Below are positions 2,190 through 32,859 of a DNA stretch of 56,548 nucleotides, piece after piece. The position numbers and the translations under genes were made by a program. Origin of the DNA: a virus; IMG/VR virus record IMGVR_UViG_3300042154_001807, positions 1 through 56,548 of that record; one strand, 5' to 3'. The notes below the pieces were generated by a model, which was not told where the DNA came from, ran no database searches, and saw only the letters and a list, made by a program, of their open reading frames with translations. Every line of letters begins with the position of its first letter. Within the stretch, counting starts at the first letter, position 1.

Positions 2190-2504
2190 TTATGCGTCAG
2201 CGCCTTGATTCTTCTTCTGTATCCCTTTGGTAATATCCGTCTGAACATGCTTGGTGCTTTGATCCTGAGTCCCAGTCCCTTCTCTGGTCGTGTCCCCAGT
2301 CTCTGTAGCAGCGTCGTTTGCAGCAGTGGTGCGACGAACCTCAAGCGACTGGAAGTCAAAAATAACTTCGCACTGGAACGTCACTTCTTCTGGCATGTCC
2401 ACGATCAGACCAGAGTCACGCTGAGCAGCGACACCAAAACGAATTTCCTCCAGCACCTGTGAGATGTGGTTTCGAAGTTCAGCGATTGGGACGATGCTTT
2501 CCAT
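2190..2504 (-). CDS. Trypco2-like small protein, 104 aa
   Basis: Residues 4-60 (PIAELRNHISQVLEEIRFG followed by an alternating beta segment ending FDFQSLEVRRTT) resemble the Trypco2 layout of one amphipathic helix followed by beta strands, which recurs in small phage proteins near tail genes. The last 45 residues are Thr/Asp/Gln-rich and probably disordered. It sits between the second head-tail adaptor and a small unknown protein. The family call rests on pattern resemblance only, and the role is unknown. Confidence 0.5.
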   Translation of the reverse strand: MESIVPIAELRNHISQVLEEIRFGVAAQRDSGLIVDMPEEVTFQCEVIFDFQSLEVRRTTAANDAATETGDTTREGTGTQDQSTKHVQTDITKGIQKKNQGADA

Positions 2505-2508
2505 AAAA

Positions 2509-3372
2509 TTAATATCCGCTCGGAGACCCTACCGAGTTGCTAGGAGTTGTTAGTGTTTGCGGGATCATAGTCGAGTATCTAACCTCAGCTGCGTTGCCCC
2601 TTGCAACAGCTGCTGATCGAAGAGACTCACTTCTCCATAGGTCGGTCTCTGCCAGCAACCCCCTGACCATAGGTAAAAGATATGACTCCACATGTTCATA
2701 CCGAATAGGAAGGTCTCTAGTAGCCGTGATAGTATCCAAGAAAGTAATGCGCGGAGGAGCTAGACGCGCGGTAGCCTTGAACCTGATCGCTGATATAGGC
2801 AACCTATCGACTCGGAACACTGCTCTGTAGTCGTCATGCTGCCCGTTTGGCTCGACAGACCAGCACTCTGGGTTCCCGACAGCGAAACGATACAAAAGCC
2901 TGTCACGGGCAGGATAGGCACCTTGCAGAAGCTGTGTGTCGGTGTCAGCGTAGCGAGGGTTCGAAGAGATGCTTGAATACTGAGCAGGAAGAGCAACGGC
3001 ATCGTAGTAAATCGTGGCGCTTACAGTTCCAGTAGCTCCAGAGTATGGAAGCAACATCTTGTCATTCCCGATGATCTGGTTGTCGATCTCGTCACCAGTA
3101 ATTTTAATGGTGCAATACATGTCCTCGTCCGTTGCCGAGTAAGAGGTAAAGTCGGTGCTTCCTTGAACGACTCCTATAGTAATTGCTTTCGGAGCAGCAA
3201 GGTTGATCGATATTGTCGTGACCTTGCTATGGTCGGGTGCATGGTCGTGCATTATTTGCAGAGACGCATTTACGCAGTCGAGAATTGTTTGCCGTTCCTC
3301 AGCGGTCAGGTTGCTTGGATTTGTCTGAGTCAGGTCTCGAGTAAGACGCTGGATGAACGCTAAAGTTTTCAT
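2509..3372 (-). CDS. Head-tail adaptor / tail tube-A-like protein 2, 287 aa
   Basis: The N-terminal helix (FIQRLTRDLTQTNPSNLT and ERQTILDCVNASLQIM) and the C-terminal helix (YEHVESYLLPMVRGLLAETD) match the build of podovirus gp4/gp11-type adaptors, which sit below the portal and start the short tail. The C-terminal signature (H-x-Y-V-E-S-x-L-x-P-x-x-R) is shared with the gene just upstream, so the two look like diverged paralogues. The start overlaps the upstream stop by 4 bases (ATGA). Confidence 0.65.
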   Translation of the reverse strand: MKTLAFIQRLTRDLTQTNPSNLTAEERQTILDCVNASLQIMHDHAPDHSKVTTISINLAAPKAITIGVVQGSTDFTSYSATDEDMYCTIKITGDEIDNQIIGNDKMLLPYSGATGTVSATIYYDAVALPAQYSSISSNPRYADTDTQLLQGAYPARDRLLYRFAVGNPECWSVEPNGQHDDYRAVFRVDRLPISAIRFKATARLAPPRITFLDTITATRDLPIRYEHVESYLLPMVRGLLAETDLWRSESLRSAAVARGNAAEVRYSTMIPQTLTTPSNSVGSPSGY

Positions 3373-4340
3373 TTCGCCTTCGCTCCTTTCCTGTAGCCGA
3401 GGTTGTCTCCAGACTGACCAGCGAGCGGATCAGCTACGTCGAGTAGGAGTCGTGCCTGAGCATACCCGTTGACGATCGCTTCCTGACGATCTCGAGCAAT
3501 AAATAAATGGCTGCTCATCGCCATGTGTCGGCACACTGGCATGAGTAATGACTCAACGTATTTGTGAGGGATGGGGCACAGTGGGCAGCTATCGAAGTCG
3601 AGGAGAGAATATCGAGGAGCCTCTGTGACTACCTCCATCTTCACAGTGATATTCCCAGAAGGAGCAGGCACAATGTTCAGAGTGCATTTGGCAGGGTCAG
3701 CTCCAGCTTGATTCTCTCGCTCGAGATAGTAAGCTACTGGAACCGAGGCTGAGTCACCGTCAAGGAATGAGTCGGCGAAATTTTCAAGTTCCGAGACATT
3801 TGCAAGAGGGACTAACAATTCTCCAGTGGTTAGTCTAACAGGACCTGTGACGTTTTGAATGTCATTGGCAAGGACGCTTGTGGTGTTTCCAGAGGTGATC
3901 GCTACCGATAGATTGGAGGTTGTCCAGTAGCTTCGGTCGATCGCTTGGTTCCATACAACCTGCATCGATTGGTTAATGACATTCAGTGCAGCAATCTTTG
4001 CCATCTGTGGCGCTGAGCATGGACTCTCCATTCCCCAGCTCATTAGAATATCACGCAGAACGTCGCACACCGTTAGACCGTTCCTGATGACTGTGATAGA
4101 AGCTGAAGCATCAGACGTAGCTATGACCGATGCTGAAAATTTCTTTGTCAGTCCTGCGTTAACAGAAGCCACCGCAGATCCGTAGACAGCGGATGAGGAA
4201 ACAGACTTATTTGTAGTAGCTGCGGTCGCAACCGAAACCCCGATAACAGCAGCAGCCATTTTGCGCACAACTCGACGGTTAGCCGTGGCAGATACCACCA
4301 CGGTCCCAGTCATAGTTTTGTACACGATTGTAACTGGCAT
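3369..4340 (-). CDS. Head-tail adaptor-like protein 1, 323 aa
   Basis: The first 90 residues are an Ala/Ser/Val-rich beta segment absent from the downstream paralogue. The remaining part has the adaptor pattern: VCDVLRDILMSWGM and NVINQSMQVVWNQA near residue 110, a beta core, and the terminal helix HKYVESLLMPVCRHMAMSSH. It is probably one of two stacked connector rings between portal and tail (family knowledge plus inference). The added N-terminal domain could face the capsid exterior or mediate stacking. Confidence 0.6.
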   Translation of the reverse strand: MPVTIVYKTMTGTVVVSATANRRVVRKMAAAVIGVSVATAATTNKSVSSSAVYGSAVASVNAGLTKKFSASVIATSDASASITVIRNGLTVCDVLRDILMSWGMESPCSAPQMAKIAALNVINQSMQVVWNQAIDRSYWTTSNLSVAITSGNTTSVLANDIQNVTGPVRLTTGELLVPLANVSELENFADSFLDGDSASVPVAYYLERENQAGADPAKCTLNIVPAPSGNITVKMEVVTEAPRYSLLDFDSCPLCPIPHKYVESLLMPVCRHMAMSSHLFIARDRQEAIVNGYAQARLLLDVADPLAGQSGDNLGYRKGAKAK

Positions 4341-4344
4341 GATT

Positions 4345-4746
4345 TTATTCGAAAGTAATGTCGAGATCTCCTGATGGAATTATCAGATGATCGTCATGAT
4401 TGATTAAAGTGACTGGCGCAAGTGCCCCGTAGAACAGCAGATTTCCTCCGCTAAGCTCGTCGAACATTCCCCAGCTAGTAACGGTCCCCCACGAAGCTCC
4501 GCTCACGGGGAAGGTGATAGCAATACCGTTTGATTTAACCCCAGCAATTGCGTCTGGGAAATTCGAAACAGTATTTGTCACTGATGCCCTAGCGTAACCT
4601 GTGCCGCTTACCTCTGTTCCGCCACCATCCTCAGACGGAGCAGCGGTGTAGAGAGCTAAATACACCGTGGTAGGAGCCGTGTAAGCGACCCTGCCAAGAA
4701 TGTAATTGGCTACTTTGCCTTGAAGGTATGCGCTGAGAGCTGCCAT
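4345..4746 (-). CDS. Gp80-like virion protein, copy 2 (133 aa)
   Basis: This protein shares its whole length with the upstream gene: LYLALYT-APSEDGGGTEV-G-GYARASV, then a central 'F...G..SNG....FP...A.WGTV..W' segment and a terminal beta strand. This layout is found in small phage structural proteins annotated as Gp80 or tail fibre-like. It is a tandem duplicate, 1 base from its paralogue, and lies between capsid and adaptor genes, so it is probably a capsid decoration or neck component (inference). Confidence 0.6.
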   Translation of the reverse strand: MAALSAYLQGKVANYILGRVAYTAPTTVYLALYTAAPSEDGGGTEVSGTGYARASVTNTVSNFPDAIAGVKSNGIAITFPVSGASWGTVTSWGMFDELSGGNLLFYGALAPVTLINHDDHLIIPSGDLDITFE

Positions 4747-4747
4747 A

Positions 4748-5152
4748 TTAGTCGAGGGTGATCGTTAGTTGGTTGATCGGAATTGTTAGGGAGTCGGTAT
4801 CGGCAATCGTTTTCGCGGCGTTAAAAGCACCAAAGAAAAGCATGTCTCCAGAAGACGATGCCGACATGAGTGCCCAGTGACTAACGGTGCCCCATGAGCC
4901 TCCGCTTGCAGCTGGGAATGTAAACGCTGTTCCGTTAGACTTCTGACCACTGCTCGCAGCAGGAAAGTTCGTTGGGTTATTTGTAATGGACAGTCGAGTG
5001 TATCCGTAACCAGCAACTTCGGTGCCACCACCATTCTCGGTAGGGGCAACGGTGAAGAGCGCGAGATAGAGCGTAGTGACAGGGGTGTAAGTTCCTGCAC
5101 CAAGAATATGGTTCATCACTTTGTTTTCGAGATCTGATGAGAATGCGGACAT
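4748..5152 (-). CDS. Gp80-like virion protein, copy 1 (134 aa)
   Basis: This is the paralogue of the next gene downstream, with the same signature (LYLALFT-APTENGGGTEV-GYGYTRLSI and SWGTVSHWALM). The two proteins are similar throughout but differ at most surface-type positions, so the duplication is old. The gene follows an 85-residue protein and the capsid gene. The start at 5152 is preceded by an A/T-rich segment without Shine-Dalgarno. Confidence 0.6.
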   Translation of the reverse strand: MSAFSSDLENKVMNHILGAGTYTPVTTLYLALFTVAPTENGGGTEVAGYGYTRLSITNNPTNFPAASSGQKSNGTAFTFPAASGGSWGTVSHWALMSASSSGDMLFFGAFNAAKTIADTDSLTIPINQLTITLD

Positions 5153-11924: not shown

Positions 11925-14900
11925 TTATTTCCAGTTAGGATCTCTTTTCAGTGAGGTCAGAGCAGAAGCCCTAGACACCTCGATTATTTTTTGTAAGTTC
12001 TTAATATCTTCGTCTGTTGGGTCAGCGTAATTAAACGAGCGACCACGGACGATGTTTGTGAAGTTTGTTCCTGCACGCTCTCGGTAAATACGAGCCTGCG
12101 TGTCGGTCATTGCAACCTGCCCTTTACCTTTGACAGGGGTATAGCTTCCTCCAGCTTCTGATGGCAGGGTTTCTCCGTCAGGATTTTTCTGTTGATAGCG
12201 CCACAACATCTCATCAACCTTGTTCACCTCTACAGATCCAGAGTCAGTGAAGTCAAACAACCTTGTGATGGGAGTTCCTAGCTTCTCTGATTTTTCCCCA
12301 TAGATATCTACTTTAGCTTGTCTGATACCGTATGGGAAAACAGCTGCAAGAATTTCTTCATCGATAGTATCTGCTTTTGCTCGGTAGTAAGGATCAAGTT
12401 CACGAAGAGGTTGTTTTATCAGGTTCGGAACAAGCATCGCGATCTTGTCAGCGACAAATTTAGACATGCTTTGCTCTCCCATGATCGTCTTGTAGAAATT
12501 GCCAAGACCAGACAAGAAAGTTTTGTCAGACAGCTGATCAGCAAATGCTCGAGTAGATGCGCTCACGGCATCACCATAAGTTTGTCGACCCTTGCCTGCT
12601 TGCTTGAATTGTTTGAGCGTGTCAACGGTCGAAGAAATGATAGTTGCTACTGGTTCGTAGCGACCGTAATGGAACACTCCTCGTTTTCCGTTAGGAAGTT
12701 TCCATGAGATAGAGTAAGCGTCAAGCCCAAGTCTCTGAGCAGCTTCGCGGACACCCTTCTTTGTATTTGCGTAAGAACGGGAACCAGTGACAAGTATTGG
12801 CTTGTCGAGGTCGTCGTCGTCACCCTCTCCAATGCCTAACAAAAGAGAAGTGATGACTCCGCCGATCATGACTCGAGACATTCTCTCAATCACCTCCGCC
12901 TTTGCCTGCATCTTCTTCTCTGGAGTCTTGATGCCCATGCTCTGAACATACAGAGTGGCTACATCAATCAAGCTCAGAGGAGTGTATGTCAGTGCCAGTG
13001 CGGTGATGTTGTATGGGATCTTAACGAACGGGAAAAACATCATTCGGAAAAGCGTTTTGTTTAGCTTAACCAGCATGTTCTCATTGTTGCTGGGAGCTAT
13101 TGCGCTTTGAACTTTTGCCACGACCGAGCCGATTGCTTCCCCGCTAGTTCTGACTGGTCTTACCTCGCCAGTTGCTTGGTCTTTCTGACTCGGCATCGCT
13201 CCAGTGAAAGTCCGAGTATAAGCCTTCTGAGCAGCGAGCTGCCAAGCAAGCGACCCAGTGACGTTGACAAGCTCTTTCATTTTGTCGTCAAATGCTTTCG
13301 AGTCTGGCTTTAATCCACCAGCACGACAGATGCGATATGCCATCGCTCCGACCTCGGTCATAGCGTTGATCACTTTCACATACTCGTCGGTCGCTAGAAG
13401 CAGTCGTGTAGGAATCCGAAGGAACCTTCCCTTCTTGCCGCTGATTGCCGTGCGGTGATACATCCCGTGCCCCTCAAGGATACTTTCGAGGTCAGGAGGG
13501 ACTCCGAGTATGTCTTGCTCGAAGAACGCTGCCTCAGCGCCGTATGACGCGATGAAATTGGACTTCGCGCGAGAGAGCATAGGACCCATCGCCTTAAGCA
13601 TGTATTTGGTCTCTCCGAGAGTAGCGTTCATCGGGTTGTTGATAAATGCGTTGAGCATTATTTCGAACCCTCTTCCGATGGTGGCATCGAATGCCCCGTG
13701 AACAACACTGCTGGCGTTTACCATCATCGTTTGAAGTCCAGACAGTAGCGAGAAGTAACCATACTCCGTAGCCTTATCAATCCAGTCGGCATCAACAGAT
13801 CTGATTGCGTTAGAGATTAGGTGGACGTGCATGCGGTCGGTGATGTCGAATCGGTATGACTCAAGTGGCTTGCCAGAAGCTACCACGGTCGAAATATCGG
13901 TTCCATATTTCTTGAGGATTGCCTCGATACTCGCAAGCATCTTTTCAGCGTTTGCTCTTTTCACTGGATCCTCGATCGACTCGACTTTTGCCTTTGCTGC
14001 TGTAGCGTCGACAAGTGCCTGAACATTTTGCTTGATGTCTACAAGGTCTTTGGAATCGAACGTGTAGTTGAGTAGACCGCTGGTGAATTCTGGACGTGCC
14101 CAGTTCACTTTCTGCGGAGCAGTCGGAGCAGGTTTAACTTTGCGAGCGAGCGCCTTGGTCGAAGGACTGTGTGCCCGAGGAGAAATTCCAAGACCGACCT
14201 CAACCATTCTGCGAGCCTCTGCCTCGATCTCTGCCTCGGACATAACCGAAGCGGCACCAAGCCCAGAGTTTTCTAGCGTCGCTCCTCCGCGCACTTTTTC
14301 TTTCATGCGCTCGAGAGCTTCATTGTAGACTTTCTGAATTAGCTTCTCAACCTCAGACACTGTCATACGAGTAGCCTTAGCGATCTGTTCAGCACTGGAG
14401 TGCTGAGCATGCATTCGCATTGCCAAGGCTTCGTTTTTGCTAGAGTCCTTCATGATGTCTCTAACAATTCCGCTCTTGTCTAACGACATGTATACCTGTT
14501 TGCCGAGGACTTCGTTGATTGTGACCCCATACTCTTTCAGAGCTTTCTCGATTTCTGTTAGACGATCCTGAAGCTTCTTGCGGATCTCAGCCTTTGCCTG
14601 TGCTGGACTGAGGTATTTGCGATCGATCGAAGCAGCGACTTTCGCAGGAAGCGTTAGAATAGCGTTGGATAGGAACCTTCTGTTGCGCTCATCTGGTTTC
14701 ATCAATCGATCCCAGCCAGAGGCAAGAACCCGAGCGACATCGCTGCGCATCTTGCGATAGGACTGGATAACAACCCCAGCCTCTAACAGTTTATCGTAGT
14801 CGTTGCCTGCTTCCTGAACCATCTGCTCAATGACGATCTGAGTTCCGACAATGTCCTCTGGTCTCAGGGGCACGGCACCCACGGCACCAGTTGCGTTTGC

Positions 14901-17900
14901 GATAGCATTTTCAATAAGACCTTTGCGGTCGGAGTTGGCAAGCTTTTTGCCCCGCTTAACCCATTGCTCTCGGGTCTCTGTCTCGCGACGTTCTTCGTAT
15001 TCAATGTCGAATGCGTCTACTACTCTGCGAGTATTTTCATTGCCCATCGAAGCACGGTTTGGTGGCTTGACTGCGTTGCCGAACTCCGCTTGTTGATCTA
15101 ACAGATCTTTCGCGCGATCTTCGTCCATCAGGTTGGCAGCGAACAATGCCTGCCCTTTGCCTTTTACCGTTGCACGCATCTCGGGGGTGATGTCCACGCG
15201 CCAGATGGGGGTTGAGTTGGCATCCGATTCGCGTTTTGATGTCTCAGTAAGAACCTGACGTAGTTCGCTGTCATTCAGTTCGGAAGCTGGACGACCAAAC
15301 ATTTCTTGAGCAACCTGCTTGTATTGAACGGTAGCACGCTTGTCTGGATTCCGCAGACTCGCCTTCTCTACCTTCCCACCCCACTGCTTCACATACTTGC
15401 CAATATCTTTGACGAGCATGTTGTCGTAGAAGCCCTTCATGCCGCTGCCGCCGACTCGAAGATCATCGCCAGTGAAAACCTTTACGCCTTCTTCGAGCTT
15501 GCCTGTGCGCCGATTCAAATACCTGCTTTGGTAATCTTGCCCGTCACCACCTTCATCGTTGACGATCTTCTGGGCGAGTTCCTTGCCGACCATAGATTCC
15601 AGCGCATTGGCATCTTTGGCATACTCTTGGTCCATCACTGCGTCTCCGTTCAAGTCAAGAGCGCCGATTCCCCATCCATCGTCTTCTTTCCAATAAGCGA
15701 TTTCGCTAATGCTCTTGCTCAGGTCAAACCGATCATTCTGAGTCTCTCCAGTGGTCCAGCCGATCCAAGTCTTGCCACTTGCCACGGCATCACGCAGCGC
15801 ACGCTTGAATAAGGCAAGGTGCCAAGTGCTGCGGAAGGGAGCGTCGGCAACGCTCGCTGTTAGTCCAGATTTTCGCAACACTTCGATTTTGATAGCTCCT
15901 TCGGCAACGACAACCCCATCCGAGTCCCGCACCAACTGGTGAGTTACTGAGCTAGATTTAGGTTTGATTGTTTTCGCCCAAGAATACCCGTCAGGAGTGT
16001 AAGCCTCTACCTTGCCTCCGAACATGAGGAGCTCGCCTCTATACCCCTTCTTCCGTCCTTCTTGATGACGGTCCGACTGGATTTCCTCAATGAACAACCC
16101 GTTATCACGCTCATTCAAGCGCATGTGCGCGACGTAGTCTGGAATGTCTGGGAAGTGGCTAGACCGATAAGTTGAACCTCCTTTATCGGTAGTTTTCCCG
16201 TAATCATATCCGCTATCAAGTCTTGAAGCTTCAGCTTTTGCCTCTGCCTCTGTATCAAATGATGCGACGGCTACCCCATCTACTGGATTAAAAACCTCCC
16301 ACGGTTTTCCAATTGGCATCGCCAGCACGACCTCGCGGTAGTTCTTTCCGCCTTCGAGGACGTATTGAGAGTATCTCGGTGATGGTGGATCAAGCTTGTC
16401 AGACCGCCCAATAAGACGAGCCAGCTCTGTAAATCTTTTCAACTTTTCAGCCTCCTCTGGATACTTCTTGGAAAGGAGATTTAAGTAATCATCGACAACA
16501 CCTTCCCCTTCTTGCGCCTCAGCAGACAAGACATCAAGCTGTCTTTGACCGAGGCTTCTTGACCACAGATCTGTTCTCAAGTCGGCAATCTCAACCCGTG
16601 CCGATCGGGTGTCTTCTTTTCTTTTTTCCTCCGCTTGATCATAGCCACGATTCGACTCTTCAAACCTAACAACCCCCTCGTTGTTCAGGTATCTCAGCAC
16701 GGCTTCTTTCGTCACCTTACCCTTGTCATCCTGCATCGTCGTGAGTGCCTGCTGGAGACCGCTCCACTTCACTTCCTCAGCCTTTGCGTTTTGCATTGCA
16801 ATCTGCATGACCTGACCGATGTTTGACATGCTAGGCATCTTCTGGTCGATCACTTGAGACAGCTGCGAATAAAACGGAGCGACTTCAGTGTCGAGGCTTG
16901 CTGCGTTATTGATGTTGTCGGTTTTAGGATTGAATCGCTGCGAGAGCGGAATGACGTTGCCGTTGTCGTCATAAGTTACGGGGTCGGCGGATTTGATTTG
17001 GTTGGGGTTTATGACAATTATATCGTCTAAGTCGCCCCAATTACTCCCTACCGTAACTGCGTCGAGGTTGTTATCCTGTGCGAACTGCAAAACAGCCACT
17101 TTATCATCAGCCAAGTTACCTGAGATTTCTCCGACTCTCTCGGCGCGAATGAAAACACGCATGGAGTTCTCCTTGGGGTAGGTATCTTTGAGGCGTTGCA
17201 TTCCAGCTTCGTCGGTGAACTCGGACGGGGTTCTGAATTGAGTAAAAGTATATGGTGTGATGTGATACCGCTCAACGTCGTACCCAGCCTCCCGTGCTGC
17301 CTCATCCACCATCCGTTGCGCCGTCTCCATGTCTCCACCTGCGACTGCTGCTAAATAGTCGGTGTCTAGAGAAGCAGCAAAGTTAAAATTTCTCGCCTTG
17401 CCGTATTCGGGAACTCTAACGAAAACAGTGTTTCCTATCTGGAAAGCTTCCTCCCCTTTGATCACTGGTTTGTTAGTACCACGCTCGTAGTAGTAGCTGT
17501 GTCGGTCAGGATTGAATCCGACCTGAGTCCAGTTCTTGAGATCAGCAGGCATTGATTGGTCTGCCATCCACGCTCCTTTAATGACGATATGAGGACCCTT
17601 TTCACCTCCTAACGCAATCTTAAGTGTTGGCTTTTCGCGAACCTGAAAATCTGGGTTAAGAATTCGAACTGCGGGAAGGTAAAGGTTTCCATTTTTTGAT
17701 GTTGTGGTCACAACCCCTACTCCATTTTCAGTCATAGCAGGAACGTCTTGCCTAACAGTAACAATTTCACCAGCTGTCGGCATGCCAAGATCCACCGTCG
17801 CTTCGTGTGCTTTTCTTTTATCCTTGGTGACCGCAGCAAGAACCTTGTTTTGCGATGGCAAGTCTTTCATCGACTTTGGAACTGGAACCTTGTAGGACGG

Positions 17901-20900
17901 GAAGTGTTTATCGATAGCTCGAGCAATAACTTCTTTGGAGATATTTTCTCCGTCTTCACGACGTTGCAATAGGTCTCTAACGATCGGTGAGTAAACTCTT
18001 TTCTTTGGAGTGACAGTAGTGCTAGGGAACTTAGGGTTGCCCTCATACTTCGCCATCACTTCATCGTATTCGGAGTAGAGTGATGCTGCGGAGTTTTTGT
18101 TAGTCTTAGAAACTTTTGACGCAGCAAGCCTTTGAATATTGCCAGCATTCTCAGCATCTTTAGCCTTCTTCCCATCTTTACGAGAATACCATCCATTGTA
18201 GTTTGGATCGTAAACCATAAACACAACGTCAGGTCTTCCGTTATTGTAATCCTTAAAAACTTCGTAGTCCCAGTCCTCTGGCTTGAATTCTTCAGAGAAT
18301 GGAATCCTTGACGCTACAACGAAGCCATGATTGGCATTGAATTGCGGGAGGATTGTGTCAAAAGCGTCAAGCTTTCTTCCCCCAGCAGTTATGGCAAGTG
18401 CCAGCGCTGCGCTACCAGAAGTGGATCCTTTTCTCGAGAACAAAGAAACAATGTCCCCATCATTTTTGATTGCCATTCCAGCTGACCCGTCTTTCGACAG
18501 GAACAGTCTCATGCCAGCATACTCTTCAGCAGAATATGCATGGACTGCGGCACCGTATTTCGATTCTTTCTTGGCAATAGTGATCAGGTCTTTAAACTTC
18601 GTGGCATTAGTAGAGTCCCCAGCCTGAAGCTCAACGAACTGCGCTGGTGTCATCCCAGATGTTCGGTAAACATGGCTAAACTTTGCGCTAGGTTTCCATT
18701 CTGTTTCATAGCTAACCCCAAGGTTCTTCAGAACCCGAACTCGCTTGCCATCTGCTCCGCTGATTCCCGAGTAAGCTGGGGATTTTCCGCCATCGCGCGA
18801 GATATCGGATCGCGCTCTTCTAACCGCGAGAGATTGGATAAACCTCCGCTTTTCGATTGAAGTAAGCTCTCCAGTTTTTCTCTGCTCCCCTTGAAGTTCA
18901 GTTCCAACTTCTCCATCGCTTTGTTGTGCTGCTGTTGAGCGTCCATATTTTTTTAGTGTGTAATTAATTTTTCTTTGTGTGACACCCTTCTCAAGCACCA
19001 GTTTTACTGCTGCGTTTGCGTAGTCTGGCGCTTCGGTGTCATCATAGCCTCCAGCCTCTTTCACTTCAAGGTTTTTATCTTTGGCATTTTCATAAAGGCG
19101 CTTTTCAGCATACCATAGAACTGCCTGTAAATCCGCCATTTCAAGGTTTTCGAAACCTTCTATTTTACGCATTTCTGTTAGAATATTGCCAAAGATTTCG
19201 CGAATGTAATTTCGCTCATTAGGACCGCTCGGCGCTTCTTTCTGACCATCCAAATACTTCGTGTAATTGTTTGCTGTTTTGCGAAGTTTATTTCGAACTG
19301 GCGAAGACATCATCATCTTCCTCTTTTCTTTTTTGGTTGACAATTTAGTCAACTTAGCTGAAAGATCCTCAAGAGAAAGATTGGACAAGGTTGACTCGGT
19401 ATCCGCCGCAAGTGCATTGAGACCATCCTCTCCAATAGCGTCCAGAGCTTTCAAAAGATTCTGGCGCGAATCCTCGACCTTATCAGGGACATCGTCAATA
19501 AGTGTTCCAGTCCACCTTCCCCATGTGCGAACCAACCAACGATCCATTGTTAATGCGTCGAAGTATCCATACAGGTTAGAAAAGAAACCATTGCCTACTT
19601 TAGGACCAATAATAGCAGATCCTCTAACAATTGTCGCAGAATGTTCACCCGTTGGAGTTAGAGACTTCTGAATACCTCCGATCTCACCCACGGAGAATTT
19701 TGTCTGCATGAACGCTCTAAGGTTTGAAATGCCCCACTCTTTTTTTAGAGAGTTGAACAACTCAAGCGACTTATTAATTGAGTCCTGTGAATTACCAGCA
19801 AGCAGATTGCTCGGCATGAGACCAGTGCTTTTGTATTCAGAATACACTTTCTCTGCGAGTTCAAAATTCTTGTTAACTTTTTGACCATTAGACGTGCAGG
19901 CTAGTGCCCAGATAAACGCAAACTTAGAGTCTTCGTCAGTATTTAGCTCAGGGTGCAGTAGCCCCATTACTCCGATAGCTTGCTTCGTTTTTTCGTCATA
20001 CCATCCAACCGCATTAGGATTTTGCTTGATAGCAAAGAGAGCGTCATTGAGTCCCACTCTCGATAGATATTCTGTCAGCTGGGGAGAGACTAACGAAAGG
20101 TTTACTCCAGCAGCTTTGGCAGCATCAAGAACAGCTTTCTGCATGGATATTTTCATATCACGACCCCGTGCCCAAGCCTTGCTTCCAGCGAGAGCAATAT
20201 TCGATTGAATGCTTGAAGCTTCGTCCACTGACATTGGGATGTCTTTTTGAACCCCTGCCTTCAAATCCTCTCCATTGGTCTCAGCCTCTTCGTCGCTCTC
20301 AGAGTCTAGCGAAGCTGCATTATTCTTGGCTCCTTCAAGCTCAGCCTGAAGAGCAATCATCGGAGCATCAACATCAGGGTCGCCAGTCATAGCAAATTCG
20401 ATAGGCAGCAACGTCGCTTTCTGAACCGCAAAATCACGTTTTTTAGGACTTAGGTAACCTTCGTCACCAGCGACCTTCAGAGACCCGTCTGCGTTGCGCA
20501 TTTGAGGACCTTCGTTGACCCATGAGTTCTGACCACGGGTCTCAGTGGTAAGTGCCCACCGTGCCCAAGGATTATCGATCGTGCGAGAGTGAATAGCCCA
20601 AGCAGCTTCCTCTCCAATAGCTCCGAACTGGTCAGAAAACAAACCGTGCGCGAGAGTGTCATGCACTGCTCGGAACATGTCATTGTAGAGGATTGGCTGA
20701 GTCTTGCCGTCTGCGTCAACGTAGGTGAGACCAGTGTCCTGTAGCAATGGGTGCGAGCTAAAATCGGATCCTTCAGGACCGAACGCTGATGGATCAGTTT
20801 TAAGGACACGTAGTCGGTTGCCACGTATATCCGCAACCGCTTCTCTCGATGAACCGTAAAGATCTCCCATGATCTCTTCACCAGTCTGAGGATTTTTTCT

Positions 20901-23900
20901 AACGTAATTCTCGTATTGATACCGAATCCCGTCCTCACCTTTAGTCATCGCGACATACTGATTGTAGATCTCCTTCTGAAGCTCTTCATATGCCTTGCGC
21001 ACATTTGGGTTTGCAAGGTCATCAGTCTTAGCGGACTCGTAAGCATCCGCAATCTTCATCTTGTAAAGTTGGAACGTCGGAGTGTAGTCCTTACTGGTGA
21101 CGTAGCTGCGCTTAGCAGCAGGAGCCTTGAACATCTTGCCCACCATTTCAGGCAAGCGCTTGGTGAGCCGACTGATTAAGTGCGCGGCACCGTCACGAAC
21201 CTTATTGTCTTGGTAGTTGGTGATTCCGTTGGCTCCGTCGGTGTTGGCTTTTGACCAGACTCGGATTTTCCGCCTGCGTGTGCTAAGATTTGCTGCTCCG
21301 CCTGCGCCCACGTTAATTTGGTCGTAGAAGGATTTGACTTGCCTTGTGAATTTTTCAGGGTCTGTTCCATGATGTTTTAGTGTGTAAAGTTCGATTGATC
21401 CGTCTGCGTTAACCGTGAGACCTTGGATGCCTGCACTCTTACGTGCTTTTTCGATTTCGTCAATTGAAACCTTCGGTGCGCGGATCACAGATACCAATTG
21501 GTTCTGCGTCCCATCATCGTTGACTTCTCCAAGCTGATCATCAGAAATGTTAGAGTCATCGCTAATTTCGTGCATCTCATACTGTTCGAATAGTTCAGCG
21601 AGATCCGCCATTCTTGCTCGGATCATTGGAAGGTCGGAGTCGTTTTTATAAGCGATAGAAATCTGACTGCTTGGCTCAGAGTAAGCAGCTTCGCTCGGAC
21701 TGTTGGCAAACCATCCAGTGGAGTCCTTGAACCTAGCGCTAACACCTTTCAAGTCAGACAATGCATGAGTGACTGCGATCTTCGTCAGCTCCGCAACCTC
21801 ATTAAACTTTCCATCTAACATTTTCTGTTTGATCGACGGAATAGCTTCGGTAGCCACCGTGAAGTTGAAACTTGTCTTTTTGGAAGGCTTAGTGTCAGCG
21901 TCGAGACCTGCGGCGTTGTTCTTGTATGATCCTCGAGCCTTCGCTTGTTCTGGACTTATCGTTGGCAGAGATGTCATTCCCAGTTGGTCAGCAAGGAACG
22001 CGCGGTGATGACCATCGTCGAGAGAAATAGTCCCGTCAGGCAGTGATGAGGTAACGATAGGAGTGGTCTCAAGAAACGACTTCAGAGCTTCAACTTGCGC
22101 TGGGTTTCCTTTTACTGATTCGAGAACTGCTTTAAGATTCGTGTCGGAGTAATTTTCTCCCGTTGCGTAGTTGATAATTGCCACGGCACTTTCAGCCGTG
22201 AAACCTTGGTTCCCAATCTGACCACGACTGTTTTTCAAGTCTGAAATATTCACTCTCTCTGATGAAGCGTCAAGCGAAGCAGCAGCATTCGGAGAGGACT
22301 GAGCAACAGCTCCAGCGATGGCGATACTTGTGGTTTTGTTCCCAACCTTGATCAGCATGTTAACGTCACCAATGCGAATGATTTCGCCAGTAACTTCTTC
22401 ACCGCTACCAACTCTTGACACGACCTTTCCAGTAACGACCTGACCGATTTGGAAATTGTTAGGGGTAGACTGCTGAGCGTTTGGATCCATCGCCTCAAGA
22501 TCCTTGAGAGCTTTCTGCAACAAAGTAATCTCGTTTTTCATCTCGTCGGACAAAGCGTTATCGCTCGCCATCGACTTCAGAACCTTGAGCATCGCGCGTA
22601 AGTTCTTGATCACCTCTTCCTTTGCCTTTGTCCAAAGCTTAGCGATCTCGGTCGGTGAAGCGTCAGCGTTCTGCTGCCACATCATCCTGATACCTTCGAC
22701 AGCTTTCTGCCAGTCTTCCAAGCTATCGAATCCTTTGCCATACAGGTTGCTGACTACCGAGTCATTTCCAGTGTCGACGAACTCTTTTTTCCATACTTCT
22801 TTGTAGTATGATTCGCGCCACTCCTTGAATGGTCTTGTGTCTCCAGACTTTTTGTAAATCTCTTGAGCGGCACGATACTGCGCGACGTGACGAAGCTCTT
22901 CGTCGATAACTTTCTCGATCCACTTCAGTGCCTGAGCCTCGGTCATACCAGACTTCAGTGCATCTTCCATTAGACGATCAGGGTTGATCGTTATCAGTCC
23001 TTCGTCTTCATATGCTCGGTCATTAGGGTCATTTGAAATTGTTAGGACAGATGCCAGTCCCTTGCGTTTTTTGCGGATCTTCCTAACAGCTTTATTCGCG
23101 GGAGAAAGATTGGCTCGAATAGCTTCAACGATGTCCGCAGGGGTCATGTCGTCGGTCACGGTGACTCCGTTCTCCGCAGCCACACGTTTTAAATCGTCGA
23201 CCGTCCCAGTGAGTGCCCCGTTGTCGTCGATGCTATCCAGCAGCTTGTTAGCTTCGCTGTTAAGCCCGACCTGAGCTTGTTGGTTGTCCACAGGTGTCGC
23301 AGAATTTGCATCTCCCGCAGGGTTGCCTGCGTTCGGAGGATTAGCGGTCCCACCCTGACTATTCGCTCCCGCACCTGTGGACACCAAGGGGGTTACTGAG
23401 GCGACTTTATCGCCCATCGCAAATTGTTTGGCAGCGATCACCTGAGCATCGGCTTCGTCCTTCGCCTCCACTTCAACACTCGCACCGCTCTCGCTGGTTA
23501 CGGTGAACTTCTGCTTCGAGAACTTCGCCCGAGCCTCGCCTTCGGTCATCGTAGCGATGCCTTTGGCTGACGGTGCCACGTCTTCCATTTCTACCAGAGC
23601 AGCGTCAAGCAGGACTGGTTTGCCGTTGACCATTTCGACCATCGGTGGGTTTGGTGAGCCTTCCAGCGGTGTTCCGTCGCGATTGATTCCAAGCGCAGCA
23701 ATTTCTACTGCGGTCAGTTCGTCAAGACTCTTGCCCTGAGCCAGCTTTACGGCACCAGAGACGCGATCAGCGACTTCGGGGGCAGCAGCCCTCACGCTCT
23801 CGATCTCGCGCAGGACGGCAGCATTCTGTGCAAGTTTGTCTGGGTCTTCCAGATCAGCACCCATCTCCGCAGCTTTGCGCTCTTCTTCAGCCGTGAGCGG

Positions 23901-26381
23901 CTTGCCACCGTTCTCGACAAGCTTGGCACTTGCTTGGTCACGGACGGAGAACCGAACTTGTGGCAACACACCACCAACGAGTCCGCCAAGCATTGCGGCT
24001 TTGAACGACTCTTCAAGCAAATCACCTAGCTTCATGTCTTTACCAAGCGCTGCCGTGGAAATAATGCCGTCGAGCATTTGGTTGATTCCCTCTTCCAGTG
24101 CTTCATCAGTAGCATCAGCAAACATGGTTTTACCAATCTGCTTTAACTCTGCTTTCAAACCAGCGTCTTTGATTGCCTTGCGACCGCCTTTGCTTAAGAA
24201 ATCCAACACGGTCATCGTTCTGGCGGCTCCACCAGTGACAATCCGTTCAGGACCACTAGGAAGCATGCGATTCAGCAATGCCGTTTGTGCGCCATTACTG
24301 AACGCTGCAATGCGGGTTTCTTTGCGACCAAGCACTTCCGCAATTTCGTCGTTAGTAAGCCCACGACCAAATTTCTCTTCCTCAAGATTTACTGCATCTT
24401 GATACTTTGATCCTGCTCCTTGTAAAAACGATGTTCCTTCTACTGCTGCGACACGGGTAATCGCTGCGGCTAGTGGCTTTAATCCTCGTGCCACGGCACC
24501 ACCAGCTAACATCGGAACCATCTGCGTAGCGGTGTTTGCTACATCGCCAAATACGCCGTAAGCACCAGTCAGTCCTCTGTTTACTTGAGTCATTTGACGA
24601 CCTTCAACGTATTTACTCAATTCATTTGCCGATTGCCCAACGCTGCCTGCAATCTCATCAGCGCCTACGAGCGACGCAAAGCCAGCAGCCACATTTTTCC
24701 CTGTGCCGATGATTCCATACGCACCGTTCGCAATCTCATTGAGAACAACGTCCGCAAATTTCACGATCGGATTACGATCTGTCATGCTTTTGCGCCATTC
24801 GTCTAGCAAGGCAACGTCATCAGTGCCTTTACGCTCATCAGCAAACGCCTTGAAATCATAGTCAGCAGAATAGAGTTTGCCCTTCAATTCTTTCGCCATG
24901 CCTTTACGCATCGCATCAAGTCGCTCTAACGCTTCACCTTGCTTCTCGGCATTGTTTCCAGTTGTTTGGATCTTCTTTTTCAGCGCTTCATTGTCGCCAA
25001 AAATCAAAGCTGGATTGAACGCCATGCTTCCAGTTGAAAGCTCTCGCACGCTGTCCGTGGTGTCTGCCGTCCATGCGTATTCTTTTGAGGCATCTGAAAT
25101 AATGCGGTCCGCGTCATCGCCAAGTGATTCTTGCAGTTGCTTTAGTTTTGGCAGGTTCTTTTGCGCCATTTCTTTCCGCTCCAATGCTGCTTGCTCACCT
25201 CCGCCCATGTCAGCACCAAGTCCACCGCTATAAACGGCATCAGCGGTCATATCGCTCTCCGCACTGGAAATGGCTTCTTTTAATGTTTTATTGCGCAACA
25301 ATGCACCGATTGAAGCGCTGTCTTTGCTATTACCAAAAATTTCATTAAAGAAATCTTTACCTTTCTGATAAATCCCCTCTTCTTTTCCTGCAATGGCTTT
25401 CGACTGTGAGCTTACGCCAAGAATCTTAATTGCGGACTGTCTTTTTTTTGCCTCTTCGTTATCTTTACGAAACGTCGCAATGTTTTTTCTTTGTGCTGAG
25501 ATCTCTGCTTTCGCTGCCGCTATTTTTTGAGGATCAGCATTGCCAATTTTTTCAGCTTCTAAGACACGCTGATCCGCTGCGTTCAAATCATTGTCGTAAT
25601 CGTCAAGCGTCTTTGGCTTGTTCGGATTAGCCTCTTGAAACACTCCGTTCGTCGTAGTGCCATATCCTTCGGTCGGGTTCAGAACCCCAGCAGTCACGCT
25701 GGATCTGCGCTGTTCTACAAGCTTCCGCTCTTCTGCTACCTGAGCCTTCTCGGCAGCGTGTGCGGCAAGGTCTTTTCCAACAATGCCAGAAGCCTCGCGC
25801 TCAGCGATCGCGGTCTCGCGCTCTTTCAGTTTTTCATCGACAGTCGCCACAGAGTTGAGACGCGCCCTCGCACGCTCTTCACGGTATCCGTTGACACCCA
25901 TCGACCCAAGTTCTTGGAGGCGCTTTTTAGATTCCCATTGTTCCTTTTCTTTTGCTGCCAACTCATCGTCCTTGATGAGCTTAGCCTTCAGCTCTGCATG
26001 AACTGGATCGATTTCTTGAAGACCAGAACCAGTAGTAAGAATTTCTTCGCGTTCTTTCGCTGTAAGTCTTTGACCCTTTTTTTCAGGGTCTGACAAATCG
26101 ATCTCAAGCTGATCCATCTTGTCGCGCAATGACTTCGCGTCACGCTTAAATAATGCTTCAGTAGCAATTCCTCCATAAACTGGATCGTCCTCTAATCCTT
26201 CAGCGTCACGATCTTCCCACAACCCTCCTCCTAAAGAGAACTTCACAGTCCCGAAACCAGCCTTTGCCGTCGGTGTTGCCATTTCATCGGCAATTATTTT
26301 TTCCTCGCTCCTGATCGCTTCTTTGTTGCGTTCAGCAAAACCTGAGACATTGACGTTTCGTTTCCAGATAGGTGGTTGCAT
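11925..26381 (-). CDS. Giant polyvalent ejection protein, 4818 aa
   Basis: This single frame takes up about a quarter of the genome. In order: a charged coiled-coil N-terminus (1-300); a Gly/Ala-rich membrane-active region (about 540-810) as in phage internal virion proteins; a possible degenerate zincin with E-E-x-x-H (about 1160); a small beta domain; a ParB/Srx-like domain with DDGHHRAF (about 1370-1485); a polyvalent domain with FRAVHDTLAHG and GEEAAWAIHSR (about 1895-1925); a domain with GPKVGNGFFSNLYGYFDALT (about 2257-2290); a GNAT-like domain (about 2620-2720); a domain with NPDRHSYYYERG (about 2960); an ADP-ribosyltransferase-like domain (3000-3150); a large LPD domain with FIEEIQSDRHQEGRKKGY (3160-3745); and a C-terminal helical LPD38-like region with PYNITALALTYTPL (about 4450). 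Such proteins are packaged and injected with the DNA. Peptides of the type NNAASLD separate the domains. Confidence 0.85.
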   Translation of the reverse strand: MQPPIWKRNVNVSGFAERNKEAIRSEEKIIADEMATPTAKAGFGTVKFSLGGGLWEDRDAEGLEDDPVYGGIATEALFKRDAKSLRDKMDQLEIDLSDPEKKGQRLTAKEREEILTTGSGLQEIDPVHAELKAKLIKDDELAAKEKEQWESKKRLQELGSMGVNGYREERARARLNSVATVDEKLKERETAIAEREASGIVGKDLAAHAAEKAQVAEERKLVEQRRSSVTAGVLNPTEGYGTTTNGVFQEANPNKPKTLDDYDNDLNAADQRVLEAEKIGNADPQKIAAAKAEISAQRKNIATFRKDNEEAKKRQSAIKILGVSSQSKAIAGKEEGIYQKGKDFFNEIFGNSKDSASIGALLRNKTLKEAISSAESDMTADAVYSGGLGADMGGGEQAALERKEMAQKNLPKLKQLQESLGDDADRIISDASKEYAWTADTTDSVRELSTGSMAFNPALIFGDNEALKKKIQTTGNNAEKQGEALERLDAMRKGMAKELKGKLYSADYDFKAFADERKGTDDVALLDEWRKSMTDRNPIVKFADVVLNEIANGAYGIIGTGKNVAAGFASLVGADEIAGSVGQSANELSKYVEGRQMTQVNRGLTGAYGVFGDVANTATQMVPMLAGGAVARGLKPLAAAITRVAAVEGTSFLQGAGSKYQDAVNLEEEKFGRGLTNDEIAEVLGRKETRIAAFSNGAQTALLNRMLPSGPERIVTGGAARTMTVLDFLSKGGRKAIKDAGLKAELKQIGKTMFADATDEALEEGINQMLDGIISTAALGKDMKLGDLLEESFKAAMLGGLVGGVLPQVRFSVRDQASAKLVENGGKPLTAEEERKAAEMGADLEDPDKLAQNAAVLREIESVRAAAPEVADRVSGAVKLAQGKSLDELTAVEIAALGINRDGTPLEGSPNPPMVEMVNGKPVLLDAALVEMEDVAPSAKGIATMTEGEARAKFSKQKFTVTSESGASVEVEAKDEADAQVIAAKQFAMGDKVASVTPLVSTGAGANSQGGTANPPNAGNPAGDANSATPVDNQQAQVGLNSEANKLLDSIDDNGALTGTVDDLKRVAAENGVTVTDDMTPADIVEAIRANLSPANKAVRKIRKKRKGLASVLTISNDPNDRAYEDEGLITINPDRLMEDALKSGMTEAQALKWIEKVIDEELRHVAQYRAAQEIYKKSGDTRPFKEWRESYYKEVWKKEFVDTGNDSVVSNLYGKGFDSLEDWQKAVEGIRMMWQQNADASPTEIAKLWTKAKEEVIKNLRAMLKVLKSMASDNALSDEMKNEITLLQKALKDLEAMDPNAQQSTPNNFQIGQVVTGKVVSRVGSGEEVTGEIIRIGDVNMLIKVGNKTTSIAIAGAVAQSSPNAAASLDASSERVNISDLKNSRGQIGNQGFTAESAVAIINYATGENYSDTNLKAVLESVKGNPAQVEALKSFLETTPIVTSSLPDGTISLDDGHHRAFLADQLGMTSLPTISPEQAKARGSYKNNAAGLDADTKPSKKTSFNFTVATEAIPSIKQKMLDGKFNEVAELTKIAVTHALSDLKGVSARFKDSTGWFANSPSEAAYSEPSSQISIAYKNDSDLPMIRARMADLAELFEQYEMHEISDDSNISDDQLGEVNDDGTQNQLVSVIRAPKVSIDEIEKARKSAGIQGLTVNADGSIELYTLKHHGTDPEKFTRQVKSFYDQINVGAGGAANLSTRRRKIRVWSKANTDGANGITNYQDNKVRDGAAHLISRLTKRLPEMVGKMFKAPAAKRSYVTSKDYTPTFQLYKMKIADAYESAKTDDLANPNVRKAYEELQKEIYNQYVAMTKGEDGIRYQYENYVRKNPQTGEEIMGDLYGSSREAVADIRGNRLRVLKTDPSAFGPEGSDFSSHPLLQDTGLTYVDADGKTQPILYNDMFRAVHDTLAHGLFSDQFGAIGEEAAWAIHSRTIDNPWARWALTTETRGQNSWVNEGPQMRNADGSLKVAGDEGYLSPKKRDFAVQKATLLPIEFAMTGDPDVDAPMIALQAELEGAKNNAASLDSESDEEAETNGEDLKAGVQKDIPMSVDEASSIQSNIALAGSKAWARGRDMKISMQKAVLDAAKAAGVNLSLVSPQLTEYLSRVGLNDALFAIKQNPNAVGWYDEKTKQAIGVMGLLHPELNTDEDSKFAFIWALACTSNGQKVNKNFELAEKVYSEYKSTGLMPSNLLAGNSQDSINKSLELFNSLKKEWGISNLRAFMQTKFSVGEIGGIQKSLTPTGEHSATIVRGSAIIGPKVGNGFFSNLYGYFDALTMDRWLVRTWGRWTGTLIDDVPDKVEDSRQNLLKALDAIGEDGLNALAADTESTLSNLSLEDLSAKLTKLSTKKEKRKMMMSSPVRNKLRKTANNYTKYLDGQKEAPSGPNERNYIREIFGNILTEMRKIEGFENLEMADLQAVLWYAEKRLYENAKDKNLEVKEAGGYDDTEAPDYANAAVKLVLEKGVTQRKINYTLKKYGRSTAAQQSDGEVGTELQGEQRKTGELTSIEKRRFIQSLAVRRARSDISRDGGKSPAYSGISGADGKRVRVLKNLGVSYETEWKPSAKFSHVYRTSGMTPAQFVELQAGDSTNATKFKDLITIAKKESKYGAAVHAYSAEEYAGMRLFLSKDGSAGMAIKNDGDIVSLFSRKGSTSGSAALALAITAGGRKLDAFDTILPQFNANHGFVVASRIPFSEEFKPEDWDYEVFKDYNNGRPDVVFMVYDPNYNGWYSRKDGKKAKDAENAGNIQRLAASKVSKTNKNSAASLYSEYDEVMAKYEGNPKFPSTTVTPKKRVYSPIVRDLLQRREDGENISKEVIARAIDKHFPSYKVPVPKSMKDLPSQNKVLAAVTKDKRKAHEATVDLGMPTAGEIVTVRQDVPAMTENGVGVVTTTSKNGNLYLPAVRILNPDFQVREKPTLKIALGGEKGPHIVIKGAWMADQSMPADLKNWTQVGFNPDRHSYYYERGTNKPVIKGEEAFQIGNTVFVRVPEYGKARNFNFAASLDTDYLAAVAGGDMETAQRMVDEAAREAGYDVERYHITPYTFTQFRTPSEFTDEAGMQRLKDTYPKENSMRVFIRAERVGEISGNLADDKVAVLQFAQDNNLDAVTVGSNWGDLDDIIVINPNQIKSADPVTYDDNGNVIPLSQRFNPKTDNINNAASLDTEVAPFYSQLSQVIDQKMPSMSNIGQVMQIAMQNAKAEEVKWSGLQQALTTMQDDKGKVTKEAVLRYLNNEGVVRFEESNRGYDQAEEKRKEDTRSARVEIADLRTDLWSRSLGQRQLDVLSAEAQEGEGVVDDYLNLLSKKYPEEAEKLKRFTELARLIGRSDKLDPPSPRYSQYVLEGGKNYREVVLAMPIGKPWEVFNPVDGVAVASFDTEAEAKAEASRLDSGYDYGKTTDKGGSTYRSSHFPDIPDYVAHMRLNERDNGLFIEEIQSDRHQEGRKKGYRGELLMFGGKVEAYTPDGYSWAKTIKPKSSSVTHQLVRDSDGVVVAEGAIKIEVLRKSGLTASVADAPFRSTWHLALFKRALRDAVASGKTWIGWTTGETQNDRFDLSKSISEIAYWKEDDGWGIGALDLNGDAVMDQEYAKDANALESMVGKELAQKIVNDEGGDGQDYQSRYLNRRTGKLEEGVKVFTGDDLRVGGSGMKGFYDNMLVKDIGKYVKQWGGKVEKASLRNPDKRATVQYKQVAQEMFGRPASELNDSELRQVLTETSKRESDANSTPIWRVDITPEMRATVKGKGQALFAANLMDEDRAKDLLDQQAEFGNAVKPPNRASMGNENTRRVVDAFDIEYEERRETETREQWVKRGKKLANSDRKGLIENAIANATGAVGAVPLRPEDIVGTQIVIEQMVQEAGNDYDKLLEAGVVIQSYRKMRSDVARVLASGWDRLMKPDERNRRFLSNAILTLPAKVAASIDRKYLSPAQAKAEIRKKLQDRLTEIEKALKEYGVTINEVLGKQVYMSLDKSGIVRDIMKDSSKNEALAMRMHAQHSSAEQIAKATRMTVSEVEKLIQKVYNEALERMKEKVRGGATLENSGLGAASVMSEAEIEAEARRMVEVGLGISPRAHSPSTKALARKVKPAPTAPQKVNWARPEFTSGLLNYTFDSKDLVDIKQNVQALVDATAAKAKVESIEDPVKRANAEKMLASIEAILKKYGTDISTVVASGKPLESYRFDITDRMHVHLISNAIRSVDADWIDKATEYGYFSLLSGLQTMMVNASSVVHGAFDATIGRGFEIMLNAFINNPMNATLGETKYMLKAMGPMLSRAKSNFIASYGAEAAFFEQDILGVPPDLESILEGHGMYHRTAISGKKGRFLRIPTRLLLATDEYVKVINAMTEVGAMAYRICRAGGLKPDSKAFDDKMKELVNVTGSLAWQLAAQKAYTRTFTGAMPSQKDQATGEVRPVRTSGEAIGSVVAKVQSAIAPSNNENMLVKLNKTLFRMMFFPFVKIPYNITALALTYTPLSLIDVATLYVQSMGIKTPEKKMQAKAEVIERMSRVMIGGVITSLLLGIGEGDDDDLDKPILVTGSRSYANTKKGVREAAQRLGLDAYSISWKLPNGKRGVFHYGRYEPVATIISSTVDTLKQFKQAGKGRQTYGDAVSASTRAFADQLSDKTFLSGLGNFYKTIMGEQSMSKFVADKIAMLVPNLIKQPLRELDPYYRAKADTIDEEILAAVFPYGIRQAKVDIYGEKSEKLGTPITRLFDFTDSGSVEVNKVDEMLWRYQQKNPDGETLPSEAGGSYTPVKGKGQVAMTDTQARIYRERAGTNFTNIVRGRSFNYADPTDEDIKNLQKIIEVSRASALTSLKRDPNWK

Positions 26382-31663: not shown

Positions 31664-32188
31664 TCACTCGTCCGAATGCACCCATGGGCAGCACTGTCTC
31701 AGCCGTCTGGCTGGGTGCCTGAGCTTCCTCAGTGCCCGTGCCTCCACCTGACGGATGCGCTCACGGGTGACGCGCAGCTGACGACCTATCTCCTCGAGGG
31801 TCCGAGAGTATCCGTCACCGAGACCGAACCGAAGGACTAGCACCTCGCGCTCACGGGGCAGCAGAACCGACATCTGATCCCAGATGAATCTGGTATCGAT
31901 TTCAGAGACGCTGTCACCACAGTAATGGCGCTCCTCAGCAACCTGCTGAGCCTCGTCGCAGGACAGGTCTACGACCAGTATCGAAGCGTCGACAATGACG
32001 TGCCTGAGACCTAACGCCTTCACTATCTTTCGTGCTTGAAGCACCGTCGCTGGGATCCTCCCGTGCATGATGTTGTCCATCACCGTCACCGCTATCCTCG
32101 ACTGTCTGGAGAAATCCTCCCAGCTCAGTCCCGTCTGATGGATCGCAGCCTTCAGCGCTGCGTTCTCGCTCTTTGTTATTGTGTTCAT
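31664..32188 (-). CDS. XRE-type HTH fused to sigma-70 region 4, 174 aa
   Basis: Residues 12-60 look like a Cro/CI-type helix-turn-helix ([20 protein letters not shown]). Residues 109-164 closely match region 4 of primary sigma factors: [15 protein letters not shown], then [20 protein letters not shown] and ALRKLRHP. No region 2 or region 1 is present, so it cannot be a complete sigma factor. It may contact the RNA polymerase beta flap and re-target it, acting as a late activator or anti-sigma-like factor (inference). It overlaps the recombinase gene by 4 bases and so shares its promoter. Confidence 0.8.
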
Positions 32189-32859
32189 CTTGTTAGAATT
32201 GTTTTCACGCTGCTCATTCCCCAGTCGCCACCTTGACGTGTTGGGATTGCCCGAGCGTTCAACTCGGCTGCGATCTTCGCGTAGCTCATGCGCTTGTCCT
32301 GACCTACTGGTTTGCGACGAAGCGAGCGCATCAGGTCAATGATGTCCTGCTCTCCTGCGTTGAACCCATACGGCTTCTGACCCTCGCACTTGCCTGTCTC
32401 TTCACGCTTGCGCTGCCGTGCCGCGCGGAGCTTGCGGACCAGACTGTTTTTCTCCAGCTCAGAGAACACCGCTTGCATCTGGATGATTGCCTTCTTCATC
32501 GGATCTCCCTGAATCGCAGCGGTGATGTCTTCACCAGTGTCGGCAGAGATCAACGTGATGCCTTTCGATGCGAGGAACACCAAGATAGCGTCCTGCACGA
32601 CGTAGGCTCGAGACAGACGTGTCAGGTTCTCAACGATGATCGTGCGAACCCCGTTGTCGAGGATCGCTGAGATCATGTCTTGAAACGCTGGACGGTCACT
32701 CCACGTTGAGTCTCCAGTAACACCCTCCTCGACATACTCGGTCGAGATGGTGGCTCCCATCAACTTCGCCTGACGATCGATAGCTGCACGCTGACGGGGG
32801 AACCCGTCGCCTTCGATCTGACTTTTCCCGCTAACTCTGAGGTATGAAAATGCTTTCAT
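32185..32859 (-). CDS. Serine recombinase/resolvase, 224 aa
   Basis: The N-terminus has the resolvase signature YLRVSGKSQ with catalytic Ser10, followed by [12 protein letters not shown], a central [13 protein letters not shown] and an E-helix region with [11 protein letters not shown]. The C-terminal part is short and contains GQKPYGFN and a recombinase-type HTH ([19 protein letters not shown]). This is shorter than large serine integrases and closer to resolvase/invertase size. It could resolve dimers, invert DNA or support integration; no partner site was found. A strong promoter directly precedes the start codon. Confidence 0.85.

Follow-up and report, generated by a model that had tools for sequence, protein, structure and literature searches.

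Recurring, lineage-specific peptides at the module borders of giant phage proteins suggest a private border code

Introduction

Polyvalent proteins of phages and conjugative elements are large, multi-module and strongly mosaic polypeptides that are predicted to be injected into the host. As described by Iyer et al. 2017 (PMC5512222), they carry GNAT-like, ART-like and ParB-like modules, together with metallopeptidase domains proposed to release the modules by autoproteolysis. Some of the injected antirestriction proteins of phage P1 (DarA, DdrB and DarB; PMC12810830, PMC9024508, PMC5512222) are described as proteolytically processed: DarA is a substrate of the prohead protease (PMC12810830), and DdrB is also processed (PMC5512222). 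In T4, phiKZ and SPN3US, a phage protease cuts head and ejection proteins at short motifs (PMC5694885). The virion RNA polymerase of N4, an ejected giant with several domains and flexible linkers (PMC12633501), is on the other hand reported to be packaged uncut (PMC5512222).

Here we analyze a 4818-residue protein encoded in a 56,548-nucleotide stretch of viral DNA (IMG/VR record IMGVR_UViG_3300042154_001807; hereafter, the window). A first-pass annotation of its sequence had noticed a short peptide recurring between the modules of this protein, and had proposed that the copies were either processing sites or recombination joints. We compared the protein with other giant proteins from phages and bacterial contigs, and describe how its border peptides resemble, and depart from, the systems above.

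Results

A giant protein with two backbones and several cargo modules

The ORF (11925-26381; all features of this protein lie on the minus strand) belongs to a phage whose portal is of the SU10 type and which also encodes a head protein of PHROG 334. Its N-terminal backbone (residues 1-1364; 22290-26381) matches orthologues (L270-L274) over residues 3-205, 423-951 and 1109-1296, and we found no relatives of this region among phage records. The C-terminal backbone (residues 3161-4818; 11928-16901) is 33-39% identical in another orthologue, L075, and ends like an internal virion protein: residues ~4313-4726 match internal virion protein D of pelagiphages (~21% identity, E 2e-6 to 8e-4), and the region also matches PHROG 6651 (E 3e-5). 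The protein therefore has the similarity that characterizes the ejection-type C-terminal region of T7 gp16-like proteins, and from this similarity we predict its injection into the host along with the DNA.

Like the polyvalent proteins, it joins disparate modules in one polypeptide. These include a module running from FRAVHD to TETRGQN (residues ~1697-2015; 20337-21293), with about 70 homologues whose similarity ends at 1993-2016; a GNAT-like module (residues ~2553-2750; 18132-18725), with matches to phage acetyltransferases and an AlphaFold pLDDT of ~90; an ART-like module (residues 3005-3157; 16911-17369), delimited by the edges of tblastn homology across lineages; and the 'EEIQSD' module (residues ~3404-3740; 15162-16172), which, like the FRAVHD module, is shared with other giant proteins. 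A Pfam scan of the whole protein gave no matches, and a scan of its pieces only weak, sub-threshold ones. Elsewhere in the window, also on the minus strand, two adjacent genes (4348-4746 and 4751-5152) belong to one head-protein family (PHROG 240), and at 31667-32859 a sigma-factor-like gene adjoins an integrase/invertase-like gene (PHROG 351; PHROG 95/125).

Six copies of a short peptide

The motif N[NFSA]AA[SG]L[DY] occurs in this ORF exactly six times, as first annotated: NAAASLD at residues 1365-1371 (22269-22289), NNAAGLD at 1488-1494, after the ParB-like module (21900-21920), NNAASLD at 2020-2026 (20304-20324), NSAASLY at 2763-2769, where a coil is predicted to give way to the start of a helix (18075-18095), NFAASLD at 3000-3006, immediately N-terminal to the ART-like module (17364-17384), and NNAASLD at 3158-3164 (16890-16910). 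The copy at 1488 has G for S. Position 7 is D in all copies but that at 2763, which has Y; in two copies of the close relative L001 this position is E or L. The N-terminal backbone contains no copy, and the motif is absent from all remaining ORFs of the window. Its expected count is 0.0008 by composition and 0.003 per shuffle (2000 shuffles, never more than one copy). An unbiased scan for spaced words that repeat ranked N.AASLD first in this protein (3.8e-14), a value lower than that of any of the 261 local shuffles made from the giant proteins tested. These statistics rule out a chance origin of the six copies.

Two looser sequences resemble the motif. FAANL, which had been listed as a related peptide, is indeed present at residues 3747-3751 (15129-15143), at a border shared with homologues, but is at best a degenerate copy: in the self-match test described below, its own protein ranked only 101st of 132. 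GAANL, at residues 1695-1699 (21285-21299), is a weak, degenerate candidate.

The copies lie at module borders

Several comparisons place the copies at module borders, as the first-pass annotation had claimed. In tblastn searches across dozens of lineages, homology to the ART-like module begins at 3003-3006 and ends at 3157, so that it fills exactly the interval from the copy at 3000-3006 to that at 3158-3164. L001 is 92% identical to the window protein over the C-terminal 1200 residues. Its homology stops just past the 2020 copy and restarts at 2510; there L001 has instead an unrelated module of ~670 residues, flanked by NNAASLE and RRNAASLL, and the similarity of the two DNAs likewise stops just beyond the 2020 copy. 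The orthologue L075 retains the domain at 1109-1296 and everything from 3161 onward, with an entirely different cargo: a methylase-helicase-like array replaces the segment that holds all six window copies, the last of which falls at the junction where orthology resumes, at 3161. L075, like L273, shows no strong border repeat of its own.

The same tendency can be seen in bulk. Ends of homology segments fall within 15 residues of a window copy in 46 of 162 cases (14 expected). Across 31 motif-bearing proteins, blastp segment ends lie this close to a border peptide in 974 of 2950 cases, against 262 (sd 38) when peptide positions were rotated (1000 permutations, maximum 417), with enrichment in 30 of the 31 proteins. 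Within the window protein the same short site is thus found at each module border except that at ~2505, which has no copy.

We also considered whether the copies could be part of folded domains, an outcome that would have spoken against the original proposal. AlphaFold models of residues 1085-1510 and 2500-3345 cover five copies, all of which fall in low-confidence stretches (mean pLDDT of ten-residue blocks ~23, 27, 55, 40 and 30 for the copies at 1365, 1488, 2763, 3000 and 3158), in models where only the GNAT-like domain and the domain at 1109-1296 are confidently predicted. The models thus do not contradict a linker position of the copies, and lend it weak support.

The peptide, rather than the DNA, is kept

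The six window copies share identical codons no more often than codon usage predicts (0.30 vs 0.31 expected), and their serines are encoded by TCG, TCA, TCT and AGC. A DNA repeat or a recent duplication as the source of these copies is ruled out by this random level of codon identity. At the fixed positions of the four copies shared with L001, we counted six silent and no replacement codon changes, against 9 silent and 54 replacement changes in the flanks (core versus flank, p=4e-5), the latter replacement figure being inflated because part of the flanking sequence has been swapped. The exclusively silent changes in the core indicate that the peptide, and not the DNA, is kept in the window. 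In other lineages the copies are more alike as DNA, with a mean of 0.61 identical codons vs 0.38 expected and values of up to 0.94. We read these patterns as copies that probably spread by copying or exchange and were then maintained for the peptide. The earlier proposal of recombination joints fits in part, as history, given the swap breakpoints at borders and the near-identical DNA copies elsewhere, but not as a present role in the window, where the DNA of the copies is saturated and is not maintained.

Other giant proteins have peptides of their own

Homologues have other peptides in place of NxAASLD at the same borders. After the EEIQSD module, where the window has FAANL, we found QFMPAE, RFMPEG, FMAGP, FSIG, FSPADE and FMPSD. 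After the ART-like module, where the window has NNAASLD, we found, among others, RFMPAE, RFMAGP, YSPADD, RFALDV, TSFGDV, LFQDTE, YLPAKK, VRSRG, FSIGPAQ and RFQPD. In each case the peptide tends to be found again at unrelated borders elsewhere in its protein: L199 has five copies of GYSI, L047 four of QAMAAP and L056 four or five of SFSIG. The strongest border code that we saw is that of L194 (ORF from base 2486, 5870 residues), where RFALDV occurs nine times, three of them directly after ART-like modules.

The spaced-word search detected a repeat below all 261 local shuffles in 20 of 87 non-redundant giants. Three of these repeats were left out: KSAI in L026, which reflects an array of repeated ART modules, HGxSxGD in the tail protein L022, and the sevenfold PGPL of L020, which failed the border test (0/24). 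The remaining 17 of 20 are of the border type. As judged from these sequences, border peptides are a widespread pattern of many giant phage proteins, each with its own private peptide. Giants selected by their FRAVHD module mostly lack a strong repeat, which shows that the border code is common but not universal. The cultured Pseudomonas phages F116 and USP_25 have FSR at module ends without a significant repeat; in the latter (vB_PaeM_USP_25, L277), modules of a 4899-residue protein end in DIRFSRSG and LFSRDA.

Two further observations concern individual giants. The L059 ORF that starts at base 2075 contains GKGMKEQGN four times, with 94% identical codons, as well as FSARKQ/YSARKQ, and possibly holds two border peptides in one protein, one of them copied very recently. 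Giants with repeats of their own are also found in contigs of bacterial MAGs (L308, L310 and L301; S.A.RQGG four times, DGLLFR three times and FSMK four times).

Border peptides match their own protein

We assayed the co-variation of borders within a protein by scoring each border peptide against its own protein, with the homologous border masked, and against ~130 other giants, taking a random rank of the own protein as the null. For the ART border, the own protein was in the top 5% in 32 of 62 cases (3.1 expected, p 2e-25), and for the EEIQSD border in 16 of 29 (p 6e-14; 15 of 29 with a wider mask). The result was replicated with an independent set of contigs from bacteria (14 of 28, p 1e-11), for which the controls departed little or not at all from chance; most of these contigs are MAGs, many of them of gut or rumen origin and several from Verrucomicrobia. 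Ten-residue segments taken upstream or downstream of the borders as controls stayed at chance level in 8 of 10 cases, with mild exceptions of 10/62 (p 0.001) and 5/29 (p 0.014).

Candidate proteases within the giants

HExxH, the signature of the peptidases proposed to release polyvalent modules, is present in 13 of ~20 motif-bearing lineages, and in 12 of these 13 the domain lies N-terminal to the first peptide (6.6 expected, p=0.0016). The window protein has no HExxH, nor do six or seven other lineages. Self-processing of the metallopeptidase type, by an HExxH zincin in the same chain, is therefore not the arrangement found here. The slot that the HExxH domain occupies in other giants, just upstream of the cargo, is taken in the window protein by a domain at residues 1109-1296 (22494-23057) with the pattern [IV]DEE[ILV]RHxA. 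Three lineages conserve this domain, namely those of the window, of L075/L270-L274 and of L275. This EExRH domain is modelled with fair confidence (pLDDT ~85) as strands followed by helices. Fold searches gave no significant match (the best Foldseek hit had E 0.59, and VIA-align reached at most Z 7.0, with helical chains that are unrelated), and hhalign against zincins gave E 0.012 at a probability of 3.6%; the domain is a possible zincin variant. A capsid-type protease that cuts after Glu was also considered and is unsupported, as NxAASL[DY] has no conserved Glu and the motif is absent from the capsid protein of the window.

Discussion

The borders of the window protein carry peptides that are alike within the protein and different, at the same border, between lineages. 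The explanation that we favour, to which we give about an even chance, is that they form a lineage-specific border recognition site read by a co-evolving partner, most likely a protease, with exchange of cassettes as a by-product. Exchangeable cargo modules would be strung between two conserved backbones, one N-terminal and the other C-terminal and of the ejection type; the partner would cut the polyprotein at the peptides, and the released modules (ParB-like, GNAT-like, ART-like and others) would act separately. With the same peptide at every border, there would also be short in-frame coding homology through which cassettes could be exchanged, and this would explain why the DNA of the copies is still alike in lineages shuffled recently but has diverged to saturation in the window. 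A partner that reads the site is suggested by the constraint on the peptide together with its lineage specificity. We prefer proteolytic release for three reasons: the sites mark off the modules, these giants often contain metallopeptidases, which nearly always precede the peptides, and DarA and DdrB of P1 are processed. Against cleavage, the window protein and six or seven further lineages lack HExxH, one window border is without a copy, the N4 polymerase is packaged uncut, and the peptides of different lineages have no residue in common that could be a shared cut site. Processing sites, as originally suggested, are thus compatible with the data and are what we predict, and the border peptides have proved far more general than first described.

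Lineage specificity and constraint on the peptide would fit equally well a docking or threading signal, by which each peptide binds the portal, a core protein, a chaperone or an unfoldase for the packaging or unfolding of modules, with no cutting involved. Partial unfolding during passage through the tail is indeed assumed for giant cargo proteins (PMC10136315, PMC12633501). However, a single copy at each module border is no less consistent with cutting, some modules have no copy of their own (the border at ~2505 in the window), and we identified no candidate partner for docking; we consider this explanation unlikely.

An ordinary structural cap or linker, in which module ends need a final strand and a turn and composition alone yields the repeats, would explain a loose theme that ends ART-like and EEIQSD modules in many lineages ([FY][SMAQ]), and the PGPL repeat of L020 does look like a linker. 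A cap should be set by its module, yet the peptide of a given module changes from protein to protein, and within one protein unrelated modules share a peptide. As the self-match was, moreover, replicated in the independent bacterial set, we regard this explanation as improbable. More doubtful still are joints that serve recombination only, with repeats acting as DNA microhomology and the peptide without a role: swap breakpoints coincide with the peptides, several lineages have near-identical DNA copies (0.80-0.94 identical codons) and the phage has genes for exonuclease VIII-like and Sak4-like annealing proteins, but this reading is already strained by the random codon identity of the window copies and by silent-only changes in their core, which DNA homology would not maintain.

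Returning to a protease-read site, we propose tentatively, and with somewhat less confidence than for the window protein itself, that the giants of many phages and prophages may be polyproteins with a private border code and a cognate partner, probably a protease, and that the code may determine between which phages effector cassettes can be exchanged in frame. Such a code is apparently undescribed: we found no earlier account of recurring border peptides in the open-licence literature, and a description elsewhere is possible. If the proposal is true, the longest proteins of many phages would be prokaryotic polyproteins, and the private peptide would suffice to mark out their effectors in the sequence. 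The module-release proposal of 2017 would gain exact predicted termini in many phages, candidate protease-site pairs would become available, and the in-frame movement of effector cassettes between phages would be explained.

Among known systems, T7 gp16-like internal virion protein D resembles the window protein in its C-terminal region, which matches the pelagiphage version. Judged by the length of T7 gp16, the window protein is about three times longer, and it differs in its inserted cargo modules and border peptides. The N4 virion RNA polymerase, unprocessed when packaged (PMC5512222), shares giant size, ejection and a multidomain architecture, and border repeats are not reported in the account cited (PMC12633501). 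The prohead protease sites of T4, phiKZ and SPN3US are likewise short motifs, but cutting there always follows Glu (A-X-E in SPN3US; PMC5694885), a residue that the window motif does not conserve. The Dar proteins of P1 are encoded by separate genes, DarA loses a single propeptide, and a repeated site is not reported in the sources cited above. The polyvalent proteins share the modules, the mosaicism and the predicted injection of the window protein; their release model is based on an HExxH peptidase, which the window protein lacks, and term searches of the 2017 survey (PMC5512222) found no recurring border peptide, the feature by which the giants described here are set apart.
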